Of a DNA stretch of 32,158 nt, positions 22,584-29,561 are shown one piece after another. Both the position numbers and the translations under genes were made by a program. Numbering within the stretch: the stretch's first letter is position 1; each line of letters opens with the position of its first letter. The notes under the pieces are model-generated. The model searched no databases, had not been told where the DNA came from, and saw only the letters and a program-made list of their open reading frames with translations. Origin of the DNA: an uncultured Anaerolineales bacterium. GTDB taxonomy: Bacteria > Chloroflexota > Anaerolineae > Anaerolineales > Villigracilaceae. Where the stretch lies: NCBI GenBank assembly GCA_903884265.1, contig CAISEG010000145.1, positions 1 through 32,158 of the forward strand, written 5' to 3'.

Positions 22584-23798
22584 CTGAATACCTTAATTGA
22601 CGCCATGGAACGTGCCATTCAGGAAATTATGCAATGGCCCGGAAAGACCATCCAGGTCTTTCACCATAACGATTCGGATGGGCTTACTTCAGGCGCCATC
22701 CTCGAGCGCGCCTTGGAAAGGCAAGGATACAAAGTCCAGCGCTACTGTTTGGAAAAACCATATCCCGCAGTTCTCAAAAAAGTTTACGAACAAGAGGGAA
22801 GGATCCTTATCTTTGCCGATTTTGCGGGCAGGATCGCACCGCTGCTTTCCGAATTGAACAAGGGCAGAAATCTGACCCTGATCCTGGACCACCATGTCGC
22901 TGAAGCCTCGACCGATCCGAGAGTTCTCAACCTTGACCCGGATCTATTTGGATTGAAAGGGGATCGGGATATTTCCGCTTCGACGACCTGCTATCTTTTT
23001 GCTCGGGCACTGGATCCGGTCAATCGTGACATGGCGCATATCGCTGCCGTGGGAGCGGTGGGAGACGGTTTTTTTGTGGATGGCGCGCTGGTGAGCCAAA
23101 ACCGGGACGCGGCAATGGAAGCTGTCCAACAAGGGATGATCGAGATCAGGAAACATGCAACCGGTGAACAGTACCTGTTGACAACTTCGAAAGGGCCGAT
23201 CAACTGCATTGAATTCGGTGACTATCTTGATGTATTGGGGGGAGTTGGTTATTACCAAAAAGGACCAGACATGGGGGTCAGGGTTTGCCTTGAAGGGATC
23301 TCACCGGAGTCGGACCGGATGGTCGAAGAATTAAAAGCCATCCGAACGAAGATATTTAACGATGAGATCGCGAGGCTCCAACCAGGTGCTATGAAACAAG
23401 CGCCCCATATCCAATGGTTCCATGTTGAAAAACGCTTATTCCCGATGGGAGTAAAAATGATCGGGGCATTCTGTGATGCTATTAAAGACACCAACCTTAT
23501 TGATCCCCGGAAATACCTTGCAGGATTTCAGGTCATTCCCGACGAGATCCCGGGTTTCGACGCTATTAAGTTTAACCAGGTGAAGATCTCCATGCGGGCG
23601 TCTCCTTATATGGAAGGGGAGATCCGGGCAGGCAGAGCAATGGGACTCAATATATTGCTCCCCGAAGCGACGAATAGACTTGGAGGATTTTCTGATGCCT
23701 GCCATAGTCTGACGGCTGCCACCACGGTAGCCATTGGTAAGGAAGAAAAACTGATCGAGGAAATGGAACAAATTTTAAAAGGAGAATCGTATGGCTAA
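22584..23798 (+). CDS. DHH-superfamily phosphoesterase (RecJ-like fold)
   Basis: FHHNDSDGLTSGAIL, ILIFADF, LILDHHVAEAS, AAVGAVGDGFF motifs. Start placed at CTG 22584 because AAGGAG (22571-22576) is 7 nt upstream; the ORF-track ATG at 22605 is 28 nt from the SD. Confidence 0.85.
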   Translation: MNTLIDAMERAIQEIMQWPGKTIQVFHHNDSDGLTSGAILERALERQGYKVQRYCLEKPYPAVLKKVYEQEGRILIFADFAGRIAPLLSELNKGRNLTLILDHHVAEASTDPRVLNLDPDLFGLKGDRDISASTTCYLFARALDPVNRDMAHIAAVGAVGDGFFVDGALVSQNRDAAMEAVQQGMIEIRKHATGEQYLLTTSKGPINCIEFGDYLDVLGGVGYYQKGPDMGVRVCLEGISPESDRMVEELKAIRTKIFNDEIARLQPGAMKQAPHIQWFHVEKRLFPMGVKMIGAFCDAIKDTNLIDPRKYLAGFQVIPDEIPGFDAIKFNQVKISMRASPYMEGEIRAGRAMGLNILLPEATNRLGGFSDACHSLTAATTVAIGKEEKLIEEMEQILKGESYG

Positions 23799-24726
23799 AG
23801 GAACTGGTTTTGGAAAAACGATCTTGATCGGCGATCAATTTGTTCTGGATGAAGTTCCCGCGATTGTTTCGTCAATCCCCTTTGAAACGGTGACAACGGT
23901 GGAAAGGGTTGACGGTGATGGCTGGATCTTGGAAGACAACCGCATTGAGGTTCCGGGATATAAGGAAAAGAAAAAGGAACAGCAGGCGCGCTCGATAGAT
24001 AGGGTTCTCGAGGTCATGCACATTGACGTCAAAAAGAACCCGATCAAGATTACTGTTGGGGGGACATTACTGGCTGGCAGTGGGGTGGGCGCCAGTGCTG
24101 CCAGTTGCGTTTCGCTTGCACGCGCATTGAACGAAGAGTTCAAGTTGGGTTGTCCGATCGAGGAGATTAACCGGGTGGCCTGGCAGGGCGAGTTTCCTTA
24201 CCATGGGGTTGCGAGTGGGGTTGATAATACCGCCTCAACCTATGGCGGGCTCATTCTCTTCTATTTAAAGGATGGAAAACAACATTTTGAAAGGATCAAG
24301 ACCCCGAAATCATTTGAAATAGTATTGGCCAACAGCGGCGTCACAGTGAATACCGCCGCCCTCGATGAGTTTATTGATCTGCAAAAGAAAGAAGATCCTG
24401 CCCTTTTTGCATCTCGTCTCAAGGCCATCACTGCCCAGGTTTTTGACATGAAAAAGGCCCTTGAAGCTGGTGATCTGGAGAAGGTTGGAAAGATTATGTC
24501 GGATAATCACAAGATCCTGGTCGATATGGTCATGTCTCACGAAACTCTGGACTACTTGTGCAAACTGGCCATCGAAAAGGGAGCTTTGGGGGCCAAGGTC
24601 ACCGGAGGAGGCAGAGGCGGCTATATGGTTTCTTTGACTCCCGGGAAGCAGCTCCAGGATACGGTCGCTTCAGCTTTCGAAAAGGAAGGCTATAAGCTCA
24701 TTCGGGCAACCATCGGTGGAAGTTGA
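23791..24726 (+). CDS. GHMP kinase, mevalonate-kinase-like
   Basis: GKTILIGDQFVLDEVPAI, LLAGSGVGASAASCVSLARAL, HGVASGVDNTASTYGGL, AKVTGGGRGGYMVSL. Overlaps the DHH gene by 8 nt; SD AAAAGGAG upstream. Confidence 0.85.
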   Translation: MAKGTGFGKTILIGDQFVLDEVPAIVSSIPFETVTTVERVDGDGWILEDNRIEVPGYKEKKKEQQARSIDRVLEVMHIDVKKNPIKITVGGTLLAGSGVGASAASCVSLARALNEEFKLGCPIEEINRVAWQGEFPYHGVASGVDNTASTYGGLILFYLKDGKQHFERIKTPKSFEIVLANSGVTVNTAALDEFIDLQKKEDPALFASRLKAITAQVFDMKKALEAGDLEKVGKIMSDNHKILVDMVMSHETLDYLCKLAIEKGALGAKVTGGGRGGYMVSLTPGKQLQDTVASAFEKEGYKLIRATIGGS

Positions 24727-24811: not shown

Positions 24812-25606
24812 ATGAGCGACCTGCCCATCCCAAGACACTTCTTTTCCGGGTATCTCTTCGACCTGGATGGGACAGTCTATCTGGGGGAAGCCCTGCTCCC
24901 CACCGCGGGCGAAACCCTGACGGCCTTGCGCAGGCATGGCTCCCGTACGATTTTTATTTCCAACAACCCCACCCATGCGCGCCAGGACTACGCTGATAAG
25001 CTCACCCGCCTGGGTGTGCCAACCCCCATTGAAGATATTCTGACTTCGTCGCTTGTGATGGTGGATTTTCTGAAGCGGCGTATGCCGGGTGCCCGTCTGT
25101 TCGTTGTCGGCGAGGAACCGCTGTGCGCAGAGCTGCGCCGTGGAGGCTTCGAGCTCACCGAGCAGGCGCTAAATGTTGATGCCGTCATCGCCAGCTTCGA
25201 CCGCACCTTAGTTTACCGCAAGCTGCAGATCGCCTTCGACGCCATCCGGGCCGGGGCGCGTTTCTTCGCCACCAACCCGGACCGTTACTGCCCTGTCCCC
25301 GGCGGCGGTGAGCCCGACTGCGCCGCCATCATTGCCGCCATCGAAGCCTGCACCAATACGCACGTCGAAGCTGTGGTCGGCAAGCCGTCCAACTACATGA
25401 TTGATGCCGCCCTGAACTTGATGGACTTGCCGGCCGCCGATTGCCTGATGACCGGCGACCGGTTGGAGACAGACATATTGATGGGCCGGGAGGCCGGCAT
25501 GTCCACCGCACTGGCACTGACCGGTGCGACTCCTGAATCCGCCCTGGCGGGCTCGTCCATCCAGCCGACCTACGTCCTGCGCCATTTGAGTGACCTTCTA
25601 CCGTAA
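24812..25606 (+). CDS. HAD-IIA family phosphatase (NagD-like)
   Basis: GYLFDLDGTVYLGEALLPTAGETLTALRRHG…FISNNPTHAR…VVGKPSNYMIDAAL…LMTGDRLETDILMGREAGMSTALALTG; RBS GGAG. Confidence 0.93.
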   Translation: MSDLPIPRHFFSGYLFDLDGTVYLGEALLPTAGETLTALRRHGSRTIFISNNPTHARQDYADKLTRLGVPTPIEDILTSSLVMVDFLKRRMPGARLFVVGEEPLCAELRRGGFELTEQALNVDAVIASFDRTLVYRKLQIAFDAIRAGARFFATNPDRYCPVPGGGEPDCAAIIAAIEACTNTHVEAVVGKPSNYMIDAALNLMDLPAADCLMTGDRLETDILMGREAGMSTALALTGATPESALAGSSIQPTYVLRHLSDLLP

Positions 25607-25620
25607 CCTCGCCATTCACA

Positions 25621-25662
25621 CCCAAGATCCTCCTGGTGGACGACAGCTCTACGCTTGGTAAG
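25621..25662 (+). pseudogene. Possible 5' remnant of a receiver-domain gene (PKILLVDDSSTLGK)
   Basis: In-frame …SPFTPKILLVDDSSTLGK… resembles a response-regulator beta1/alpha1 start. No start codon and no continuation of the receiver fold. Confidence 0.35.
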
Positions 25663-25733
25663 GGTCATCGTTTGGTCTCTTTTGCTATGGGCAAAGCAGG
25701 GCAGTTATATGTCATCCTTGCATCGATAAAATT

Positions 25734-25755
25734 AGAACAAATTTTCTGTTATAAT
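25734..25755 (+). promoter_or_regulatory. Extended -10 promoter (TGTTATAAT) overlapped by an AGAA-N6-TTCT dyad, predicted leaderless
   Basis: tAGAAcaaattTTCTGTTATAATggtcccATG; TG at 25747-25748, TATAAT at 25750-25755, ATG at 25762. Confidence 0.55.
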
Positions 25756-25761
25756 GGTCCC

Positions 25762-26175
25762 ATGGCTTTCTGGTATCGTCTCCTCTACAGGTTTGGCCTG
25801 CGCCGCGATCCCGGTCCCCGTTCCTACGAACTGGATGTCGCTTTGCACACAGCCCTTGAAGACCTGGCCCTCCGCGAACAACGCCCGGCAAACGAGGTCG
25901 TTTCAGAGCTGGTCGCTAGTGGCTTGGACCGGCGTTTCTCGCAAGAGGACCTTCTCCAGCGCTGGCGATCCCTTTCGCCCCGCGAACAGGATGTCTCGGC
26001 CCTGGCTTGCATCGGTTATACCAACCGTCAGATTGCCGCCCGGCTGGGCATCTCCCCTGAAACGGTCAAGACCCACCTCCACAACGCCCTGGTCAAATTC
26101 AACCTGCACAGCCGCTCCGAACTGCATTTGCTGATGGCCGGCTGGGACTTCTCTGCCTGGGAACGCCAGGTCTGA
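25762..26175 (+). CDS. Small transcriptional regulator: RHH-like N-terminus plus LuxR/GerE HTH
   Basis: YELDVALHTALEDLALREQRPANEVVSELVASGLDRR (ribbon-helix-helix-like) then LSPREQDVSALACIGYTNRQIAARLGISPETVKTHLHNALVKFNLHSRSEL (LuxR HTH). Confidence 0.8.
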   Translation: MAFWYRLLYRFGLRRDPGPRSYELDVALHTALEDLALREQRPANEVVSELVASGLDRRFSQEDLLQRWRSLSPREQDVSALACIGYTNRQIAARLGISPETVKTHLHNALVKFNLHSRSELHLLMAGWDFSAWERQV

Positions 26176-26205
26176 GCCCCATGCTCGGAAAGCCCCCGCC
26201 TCTGC

Positions 26206-26251
26206 CTCCCCCATCCGGTGAACCCTTTTCTCCCCCATCGCCTCCCCCGTC
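26206..26251 (+). repeat. Three direct repeats CTCCCCCRTC
   Basis: 26206-26215, 26230-26239 and 26242-26251; start-to-start spacing 24 and 12 bp. Confidence 0.6.
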
Positions 26252-26262
26252 GGGGGATTTTC
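26243..26262 (+). terminator. Short GC-rich hairpin with T-tract after the RHH-LuxR gene
   Basis: tccccc-gtc-ggggga-tttt. Confidence 0.5.
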
Positions 26263-26292
26263 ATGTGGCCGTGTTGGGGCTATGCTGTCAGC

Positions 26293-26823
26293 ATGGACAT
26301 CCTGCCCCTCCCCCCTCCTCGTTCCCTGACCGTCTTCTGCGCCCCCGGCGGATCGCTCGAACCGGTTGCACAGGTCATGGCGGAACTGGCCCTGCGCGGC
26401 CCGCTGACCGTCCTGGACGGCGGCAACCGCTTCCCCGCCTATCACCTGATTAGGCTCATCAGCGGCCGCATTTTCGATCCGTCTTCCGTCCTGCAGCATA
26501 CCTTCATCCGACGCGCCTTCACCTGCCACCAGGTGCTGGCCATGCTTGAGGGCACACTCACATTGCCCCAGCCCTGCATCCTCCTCGACCTCCTGGCCAC
26601 TTTCTATGATGAGCAGGTTCCCGTGCAGGAAGTCCGCCGCCTGTTGGATGGCGCCTTACGCCAGGTCGAACGCCTGTGTCAGGTCTCCCCGGTCCTGGTG
26701 ACCGCCACCCCGCCGCACACCACTGGCCGGGCTTTTCTGCTGGAGCAGCTCTGCGCCCGCGCCGATCAGCTCTTCGCCCTCGAACTGCCCGCCTCGCCGC
26801 CCCTTCAACCTGCCCTCTTCTAG
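26293..26823 (+). CDS. RecA/Rad51-fold protein lacking a recognisable Walker A motif (PolB2-operon-associated type)
   Basis: SLTVFCAPGGSLEPVAQVMAELAL (P-loop position, no GKT/S), RIFDPSSVLQHTFIRRAFTCHQVLAML (Rad51-like), PCILLDLLATFYDEQV (Walker B position). Confidence 0.6.
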   Translation: MDILPLPPPRSLTVFCAPGGSLEPVAQVMAELALRGPLTVLDGGNRFPAYHLIRLISGRIFDPSSVLQHTFIRRAFTCHQVLAMLEGTLTLPQPCILLDLLATFYDEQVPVQEVRRLLDGALRQVERLCQVSPVLVTATPPHTTGRAFLLEQLCARADQLFALELPASPPLQPALF

Positions 26824-26831
26824 TCGCTGCT

Positions 26832-27104
26832 ATGGGCCGCACCCTTCCTTCCAGCACCCAGAATTTCCTCCAGGAACAGGCCTCCTTCGCCCGCTTCCGG
26901 CGCGCCCTGCGTCGTTCCGACCAGGTCGCACTGGACGACTTGTTCGCCTCCGCCCGCCAGCATCTTGCCGCCGCGGCCTACGCGGCCAACGCCCTGCCTT
27001 TCGAGACCTTCCTGCTGGCCATGCTGCTCGAAGAGCATAAGCAGGTCATGCGCCTGCGCCAGCTTGTGGAGGCAGACCTGCATATTACCCCCGGAGATGG
27101 CTGA
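26832..27104 (+). CDS. Small helical protein of the PolB cassette
   Basis: 90 aa MGRTLPSSTQNFLQEQASFARFRRALRRSDQVALDDLFASARQHLAAAAYAANALPFETFLLAMLLEEHKQVMRLRQLVEADLHITPGDG. Starts 9 bp after the upstream stop; overlaps the polB start. Confidence 0.65.
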   Translation: MGRTLPSSTQNFLQEQASFARFRRALRRSDQVALDDLFASARQHLAAAAYAANALPFETFLLAMLLEEHKQVMRLRQLVEADLHITPGDG

Positions 27105-29397
27105 ACTCACCGGCTGGCTTCTGGATGTATACGCCGGAGAACAGGGGCTGACGATCTGGCTGCTGACCGACAACGGGGAACGCCGCTGCCTGAGCCAAAC
27201 TTTCCCCGTCACCTTCTTCGCCGCCAGCCAGGCCGTTCGACAGGGTCTTGATAAACTCGACCTGCCAGCTCACGGCAGCACCTCGGACCTGCGCGCGGCA
27301 TGGCGCTGGCTTTCCTCCCAGTCAGAGCCGCTGCGCCTGGCACGGGCTGAGCGCCGGGATCTGTTTGCTGGCCCCATCCCGGTCCTGTCCATTGAAGTCC
27401 AACAACCCGCCCACCTCCCGGGGTTGTTCCGGCGCTTCTCAGCAGCTTTCCCCAACCTGACATTTTACGACGCGGACCTTCCCATCTCTCTGCGCTATGG
27501 GGCGGTTTTCGGTGTCTTCCCCTTATGTCGCTGCTGTGTGGAGGTGCAGGGCAACCAGGTTAAAACCATCCTCGCCCTCGACTCGCCCTGGGACCTTGAT
27601 CCCGAATACCCGCCCCTGCGTCTCCTGGCGCTTGAACCAGACTGCAACCCCTCGCATGCCGTACCGAAAGGGATCATTTTTTCCTACAAAGATATCCGCT
27701 ACCGTATGCCGCTTGAACCGGTTCGGGCGCTGCTGGCCAACCTCAAATCCATCCTTCGGACTTACGACCCCGACATGCTCCTGACCTCATGGGGCGACAC
27801 CTGGCTCCTGCCAAAACTGCTTGAACTCTCCCAAGCAAATCCCCTGCCGCTCAATCGCGACCCATCCGCCCTCATCACCCGTAAAGAACAGCGCACCTAC
27901 TACGCCTATGGACAGGTCATTTACCGCGGTGCGCAGGTCCACTTGGCTGGGCGCTGGCACATCGACAAATATAACGCCGTCATGTACCACGACTATGGCC
28001 TGGACGGGATCTTTGAACTGGCACGTGTCACCGGCCTGCCTGTCCAGACAGTTGCGCGCGTTTCGCCTGGAACGGGCATCTCCTCCATGCAGATCATGAC
28101 GGCCCTGCGCCAGGGCGTCCTCGTCCCGTGGCGTAAACAGCAGGCCGAAGCTCCGAAAAACTTGTTTGAACTCGTGCGCGCCGATATGGGCGGGCTGGTC
28201 TACCAGCCAACCATCGGCCTGCACAGCAACGTGGCCGAAGTTGATTTCGTCTCCATGTATCCCAGTATTATGTCCCACTTCAACATTTCCCCGGAAACGA
28301 TCCTGCCGGGTGAGAACGACCCGCAGACCGGTCTGCCCCTCACCCGCCCGGAGCGTGGGCTGGTTCCCACCACCCTCCAGCCGCTCCTGCAGAAGCGTAT
28401 CGCCATCAAGTCGCAATTGCTGTGCCTGCCAAAATGGGATCCCCGCCGCAAGCGCTACCAGGCCACCGCCTCCGCTTACAAGTGGCTGCTGGTCACCTGC
28501 TTCGGATATCTGGGCTACAAGAATGCCCGCTTCGGGCGCATCGAATCGCATGAGGCGGTCACCGCCTATGGGCGCGAGACCCTGCTGCGCGCCAAGGAAG
28601 CCGCCGAAGACCTGGGTTTTGAAGTTCTTCACCTGTATGTGGATGGGATGTGGATTAAAAAACCCGCTTTCGCCACCCCGGCCGATTTCCAGCCCCTGCT
28701 TAACGAGATTCTCACCCGCACCGGCCTGCCCATTGCCTTGGATGGGGTCTATCGTTGGGTGGCATTTTTGCCTTCCAGGCTGGATGCGCGTATTCCGGTG
28801 GCAAATCGTTATTTCGGTGTCTTTCAAAGCGGGGAGATCAAGGTACGCGGCATTGAATTGCGCCGGCGCGACACGCCCGATTTCATCCGCGAAACGCAGC
28901 AGCAAATGCTCAATATCCTGGCCAAAGCCCCCGACGCTGAACATGTTCCAAACCTGCTCCCTGAAGTACAGGCTCTCGTACACCGCCGGCTGGCAGACCT
29001 GAAGCGCGGGCGCGTGCCACCGGAGAAACTGATTGTCCGCCAAACCCTGAGTCGCGAACTGGACGCCTACCGTTCCCCTTCCCCCGCAGCTCTGGCGGCG
29101 CGCCAACTGGCAGACCGCGCCGCGCCTCTGCGTCCCGGCCAGGTGGTGCGTTTTCTCTATACCCTGGGCAAACCGGGAGTGCGGGCCTGGGATCTGCCGG
29201 GTGAAATGGATTGCAGGACGATCGATGTTGCCCGTTATTCCACCCTGCTGGAGCGCGCCGCCGAGACGATATTTCAGCCTTTCATGTCAGAGCCGGTCGA
29301 AACCAAATTGCCTTTGCTTTCTGGTTTGTATATGCCAAATAAAACCTCTCTTCTTCAAGAACAGGCGGCGGTTAATTGGATTTCCGGAACGGCCTGA
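27097..29397 (+). CDS. Family-B DNA polymerase, PolB2-like, with degenerate catalytic motifs
   Basis: Motif A DFVSMYPSIM; motif B region ASAYKWLLVTCFGYLGYKNARFG; motif C YVDGMWI; N-terminal exonuclease-like region FYDADLPISLRYG…LRLLALEPD…YDPDMLLTSWGDTWLLPKL…YGLDGIFELARVTGLP. ATG at 27097 overlaps the upstream stop (ATGGCTGA). Confidence 0.88.
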   Translation: MAELTGWLLDVYAGEQGLTIWLLTDNGERRCLSQTFPVTFFAASQAVRQGLDKLDLPAHGSTSDLRAAWRWLSSQSEPLRLARAERRDLFAGPIPVLSIEVQQPAHLPGLFRRFSAAFPNLTFYDADLPISLRYGAVFGVFPLCRCCVEVQGNQVKTILALDSPWDLDPEYPPLRLLALEPDCNPSHAVPKGIIFSYKDIRYRMPLEPVRALLANLKSILRTYDPDMLLTSWGDTWLLPKLLELSQANPLPLNRDPSALITRKEQRTYYAYGQVIYRGAQVHLAGRWHIDKYNAVMYHDYGLDGIFELARVTGLPVQTVARVSPGTGISSMQIMTALRQGVLVPWRKQQAEAPKNLFELVRADMGGLVYQPTIGLHSNVAEVDFVSMYPSIMSHFNISPETILPGENDPQTGLPLTRPERGLVPTTLQPLLQKRIAIKSQLLCLPKWDPRRKRYQATASAYKWLLVTCFGYLGYKNARFGRIESHEAVTAYGRETLLRAKEAAEDLGFEVLHLYVDGMWIKKPAFATPADFQPLLNEILTRTGLPIALDGVYRWVAFLPSRLDARIPVANRYFGVFQSGEIKVRGIELRRRDTPDFIRETQQQMLNILAKAPDAEHVPNLLPEVQALVHRRLADLKRGRVPPEKLIVRQTLSRELDAYRSPSPAALAARQLADRAAPLRPGQVVRFLYTLGKPGVRAWDLPGEMDCRTIDVARYSTLLERAAETIFQPFMSEPVETKLPLLSGLYMPNKTSLLQEQAAVNWISGTA

Positions 29398-29484
29398 TCC
29401 GTTGCCCCGCAAGTGCATTAATACCCCATCTTTACCTGATTTGAGACAATCTCGTTTCCAGGATTATCTCCCTTTTAAGTGTGG

Positions 29485-29528
29485 AACAATATCGGCTCCC
29501 TTGATTATCCGAGGGAGCCGATATTGTT
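29485..29528 (+). terminator. Bidirectional terminator between convergent polB and lipoprotein genes
   Basis: aacaatatcggctccct / agggagccgatattgtt, 17-bp perfect stem, 10-nt loop, then TTTTG-rich. Confidence 0.88.
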
Positions 29529-29561
29529 TTGCTTGGTATTTCGTATGCCTGTTCAGCCATC

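Follow-up and report, generated by a model that had tools for sequence, protein, structure and literature searches.

A RadA-like protein without ATPase residues in an Anaerolineales genome is the iRadA of the known PolB2 mutasome

The gene at 26293-26823 of the window (the whole stretch of DNA analysed, 32,158 nucleotides) raises the question of what a Rad51-like protein without a Walker A lysine does in a bacterium that encodes a normal RecA elsewhere in the same genome. A sequence-only reading had proposed a Rad51-family paralogue that no longer hydrolyses ATP and possibly acts as a scaffold or as a RecA-filament adaptor. We find that the gene is the iRadA of the known PolB2 mutasome; this family is already published, and the dead-RadA protein is already explained. 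Set against the main texts of PMC4104785 and PMC11791011, two accompanying features look new, i.e., a conserved helix-turn-helix (HTH) gene that heads the operon and an SOS promoter box in front of it (Table 1).

Table 1. Features of the PolB2 operon in the window
Feature	Position	Strand	Size, basis or context
SOS/LexA-type box AGAACAAATTTTCT, 1 mismatch to AGAACnnnnGTTCT	25734..25747	+	closely followed by a TATAAT -10 element
Small LuxR/GerE-type HTH DNA-binding protein, first operon gene	25762..26175	+	137 aa; Pfam GerE E 6e-17
iRadA, RadA/Rad51-core protein lacking both the Walker A Lys and the catalytic Glu	26293..26823	+	176 aa; homologue alignment, profile, AlphaFold model, Foldseek
LQPALF, iRadA C terminus, beta-clamp-binding-type motif (Q[LP]xLF)	26803..26820	+	homologue comparison; PMC11791011
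PPB2 (partner of PolB2), conserved MGRT arm at start	26832..27104	+	90 aa; homologues; PMC11791011 motif
PolB2-type DNA polymerase	27097..29397	+	766 aa; NCBIfam match; alignment with haloarchaeal and phage relatives
Stem-loop of 20 pairs, strong and terminator-like	29483..29530	+	3' of operon

A RadA core and its lost ATPase residues

The open reading frame of iRadA runs from an ATG at 26293 to a stop codon at 26821-26823, its start position is common to the homologues, and it contains both segments on which the sequence-only reading had relied, RRAFTCHQVLAML and CILLDLLATFYDE. Searches of Pfam, NCBIfam and PHROGs did not place the protein in any usable family, and a PDB search with the single sequence gave a borderline match to RadA (E = 0.017). 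A profile built from 25 homologues and compared with solved structures matched RadA at E 2.5e-8 over positions 26-145, with archaeal RadA proteins as the closest solved relatives. The AlphaFold2 model (pLDDT 89.3, pTM 0.83) also finds RadA/Rad51 as its best Foldseek matches (E 3e-8, probability 1.0), and RAD51D and XRCC3-complex chains, i.e., Rad51 paralogues, are among the structural matches. Given this profile E-value and this fold-match probability, the resemblance to RadA is not due to chance, and the suggested Rad51-family core holds.

Compared with RadA/Rad51 recombinases (PDB 5qul, 1pzn, 6tuu), iRadA shares the fold and the DxxNxF and RAFxxxHQ core, yet it lacks the N-terminal helical domain of RadA, the model opening directly with the first core strand (residues 12-16), and its C-terminal part is shortened in our reading of the alignment and the model. 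The nucleotide-binding residues differ as well. Between the strand at residues 12-16 and the helix at residues 23-35 of the AlphaFold model, where RadA has GxxxxGKT, iRadA reads APGGSLEP, so that Glu23 stands for the P-loop Lys and Pro24 for the Thr in our own registration by position; the Walker A lysine is thus missing as had been noticed. LDGGNRF of iRadA aligns on IDTENTF of RadA, and the Glu of the RadA "DTE", which we take from Rad51/RadA biochemistry to be the catalytic residue, is replaced by Gly44, a residue invariant among the 25 aligned homologues. Several homologues have Asn or His in place of D99, the Walker B Asp of iRadA. An alternative P-loop was sought in orthologues, and GK[ST] occurs in the homologous region of none of the 30 homologues; the sole pattern match, found in L018, falls within open frame that precedes that region. 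Loss of the ATPase residues across the homologues is therefore a family trait and not a sequencing error. From these substitutions iRadA is predicted to be unable to hydrolyse ATP, in agreement with the earlier suggestion of an inactive paralogue.

The PolB2 operon and the role of iRadA

In the window, iRadA, PPB2 and PolB2 follow one another in this order on the same strand, with gene ends that overlap or nearly abut, and among the loci read PPB2 and PolB2 stand beside iRadA wherever the contig reaches. The iRadA-PPB2-PolB2 mutasome operon has been published (Makarova 2014, PMC4104785; Timinskas 2025, PMC11791011), and this is the sole bacterial gene order reported there. Published iRadA proteins of archaeal and bacterial PolB2 operons (arCOG07763/04294/08101) resemble the window protein in being a RadA core without the N-terminal domain and with the ATPase residues lost, in adjoining PPB2 and PolB2, and in carrying a clamp-type motif at the C terminus. 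This motif, Q[LP]xLF, lies at or near the C terminus in 17 of the 29 full-length iRadA homologues, and the window copy, with QPALF, agrees with the beta-clamp motifs that PMC11791011 describes in bacterial iRadA. The N terminus of PPB2 reads MGRTLPSSTQ; the MGRT motif, described in the same paper, is kept in 27 of 28 homologues, with MGNV in the remaining one. PolB2 matches NCBIfam PRK05761.1-2 with E 2e-118 and 396.5 bits, a score under the curated cut-off of 516. Its alignment with haloarchaeal and phage relatives shows motif C as LYVDG, in which the first Asp of DxD is gone; motif A (DFVSMYPS) is intact and the DK motif (HIDKYN) is present. At the level of Pfam domains, PolB2 matches DNA_pol_B only, with no exonuclease match.

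Very probably, iRadA is the catalytically dead RadA/Rad51 homologue of an SOS-expressed PolB2 translesion-synthesis mutasome, docked on PolB2 together with PPB2 and tethered to the clamp. The evidence from sequence here comprises RadA homology, loss of the ATPase residues, operon composition, motif conservation and the promoter box; the complex comes from the modelling in PMC11791011, and translesion function from the Sulfolobus PolB2 work cited there. In the proposed mechanism, DNA damage would activate host RecA and lead to LexA cleavage, and the promoter with the LexA-type box would then express four genes, HTH, iRadA, PPB2 and PolB2. Folded as a bare RadA core, presumably without ATP binding and without the N-terminal domain, iRadA would find its docking site at a RadA-like oligomerisation loop of PolB2; PMC11791011 predicts that iRadA binds PolB2 via a RadA-like subunit interface, and its models show iRadA to be specific for PolB2. 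One MGRT arm of the PPB2 trimer is modelled as inserted in the PolB2-iRadA cleft near DNA. The bacterial sliding clamp may hold the complex via the C-terminal QPALF, a motif that points to clamp binding by iRadA in the window organism, and by analogy the complex would then extend mismatched or damaged primer ends.

A scaffold role, one half of the earlier suggestion, thus agrees with both the evidence and the literature; the other half, adaptation to host RecA filaments, gives way to PolB2 as the partner (PMC11791011). An adaptor that works independently of the polymerase and, in the manner of an inactive Rad51 paralogue, caps or remodels the RecA filaments of the host would fit a Rad51 fold without ATPase residues and the Rad51 paralogues among the structural matches. 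However, the linkage of iRadA to PPB2 and PolB2 in the loci read, its specificity for PolB2 in the published models and the absence of a RecA link in the neighbourhoods examined make such an adaptor improbable. It is still less probable that the gene is a functionless, decaying remnant of a recombinase gene, as its lost ATPase residues, its shortened product and the presence in the same genome of another iRadA fragment that has decayed might suggest, because 30 homologues, the most distant at about 35% identity, keep the frame open and the homologue alignment has invariant residues (D42, G44, R74, F76, T77, F104 and D106), i.e., conservation under selection.

The PolB2 mutasome also recalls E. 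coli Pol V (UmuD'2C-RecA) and the ImuA-ImuB-DnaE2 mutasome, in which a RecA-family subunit likewise belongs to an error-prone polymerase complex under SOS control. It differs from them in having a B-family polymerase and a RecA-like subunit that is inactive and dedicated to the complex; in this analysis, neither PPB2 nor PolB2 showed a sequence relation to Umu or Imu proteins. That iRadA is itself an ImuA-type protein of the ImuA-ImuB-DnaE2 mutasome, a thought prompted by the shared general logic, in which an error-prone polymerase is accompanied by an inactive RecA-like subunit, and by no tool result, has a negligible chance of being right, since the iRadA profile matched RadA, with archaeal RadA closest among solved structures, Pfam and NCBIfam returned no match for iRadA, ImuA included, and its neighbours are PPB2 and PolB2 rather than ImuB or DnaE2.

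The promoter box and the HTH gene

Unlike published PolB2 operons, that of the window has a conserved LuxR/GerE-type HTH gene ahead of iRadA. Enriched PolB2-operon neighbours named in PMC4104785 and PMC11791011 are lexA or orc1/cdc6, and the main text of PMC11791011 contains no mention of LuxR or helix-turn-helix. The HTH protein (model pLDDT 85) has its LuxR/GerE HTH on the C-terminal side, and the family has a WDFSxW-like C terminus (window 25762-26175; loci L041-L051). Of 49 iRadA loci, 31 have a full-length HTH gene as the first gene of the operon; counted over the 101 genomes, 31 of 43 full-length HTH copies have iRadA downstream within 1.5 kb and in the same orientation. Ten copies do not directly precede iRadA: nine have no iRadA detected nearby, and one lies about 2.2 kb away from it. 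Orphan HTH genes were also considered as heads of an ImuA-ImuB-DnaE2 operon, a candidate that we rejected; their scanned neighbours encode radical-SAM, AAA, TIR, redoxin and other proteins, and a DNA-repair link of the orphan copies is therefore unsupported.

The SOS box was sought by pattern search and at individual loci. With 0-2 mismatches, AGAACnnnnGTTCT is present in the HTH-gene promoters of all 21 operons examined. At most one mismatch is found in 20 of these 21 real promoters (counting that of L023, which has the exact sequence) compared with 0.26% of randomised control regions, the promoters being related sequences. The box also precedes iRadA in 6 of 8 operons without an HTH gene immediately upstream, and it occurs with 0-2 mismatches in the promoters of 10/10 HTH genes away from iRadA. 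The variant [AC]GAACnnnnGTTC[TG] lies upstream of lexA in four of four genomes, the window's own among them; recA is preceded by AGCACnnnTGTTC[TG], likewise in four of four. Because variants precede both lexA and recA, the box is probably the LexA operator of this group, and LexA control of the operon in the window organism can be inferred from its promoter sequence; the HTH protein may bind the same box. The -35 element of the window promoter is weak, and a consensus promoter scan of the window called no promoter at the operon.

Experiments on PolB2 mutasomes are few, and those found are in archaea. A bacterial PolB2 case with a shared LexA-type box links a polymerase derived from archaea to the SOS response of bacteria, and in the conserved HTH gene the PolB2 mutasome gains a concrete new candidate partner. 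We suggest only tentatively, and consider it rather unlikely, that the HTH protein is a fourth dedicated, SOS-induced component of the mutasome in these Chloroflexota, tuning its expression or placing the complex on DNA.

Distribution and history

iRadA is encoded in 44 of the 101 related genomes, and its closest named relative comes from a Chloroflexi MAG (L001). No relative turned up when viral contigs were scanned with the iRadA profile, and a tblastn search of phages with PPB2 was likewise negative; tblastn with PolB2 led to Leptospira phages that carry an iRadA-PPB2-PolB2 cassette, KF114879 (L038 3198-6454) and KF114878 (L039 3219-6271). The annotation of this phage cassette calls iRadA a hypothetical protein and sets the start of PPB2 (MGRT) at the wrong place.

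G+C content is 0.60-0.65 over the operon region (window 25500-29400) versus 0.47-0.57 in most of the window, which suggests lateral transfer. In the tree, the window iRadA groups with that of a different genus (G035, support 99/97), and the decayed second iRadA fragment of the same genome (G000, contig C96:2616-2840; L050 2538-2858) groups with own-genus copies on a long branch. It is plausible that the window copy was acquired laterally, and an assembly binning error may instead account for its placement. Just upstream of a HAD hydrolase gene and the operon, a DHH-family gene overlaps a GHMP kinase gene that has mevalonate-pathway-type domains (22605-24726).
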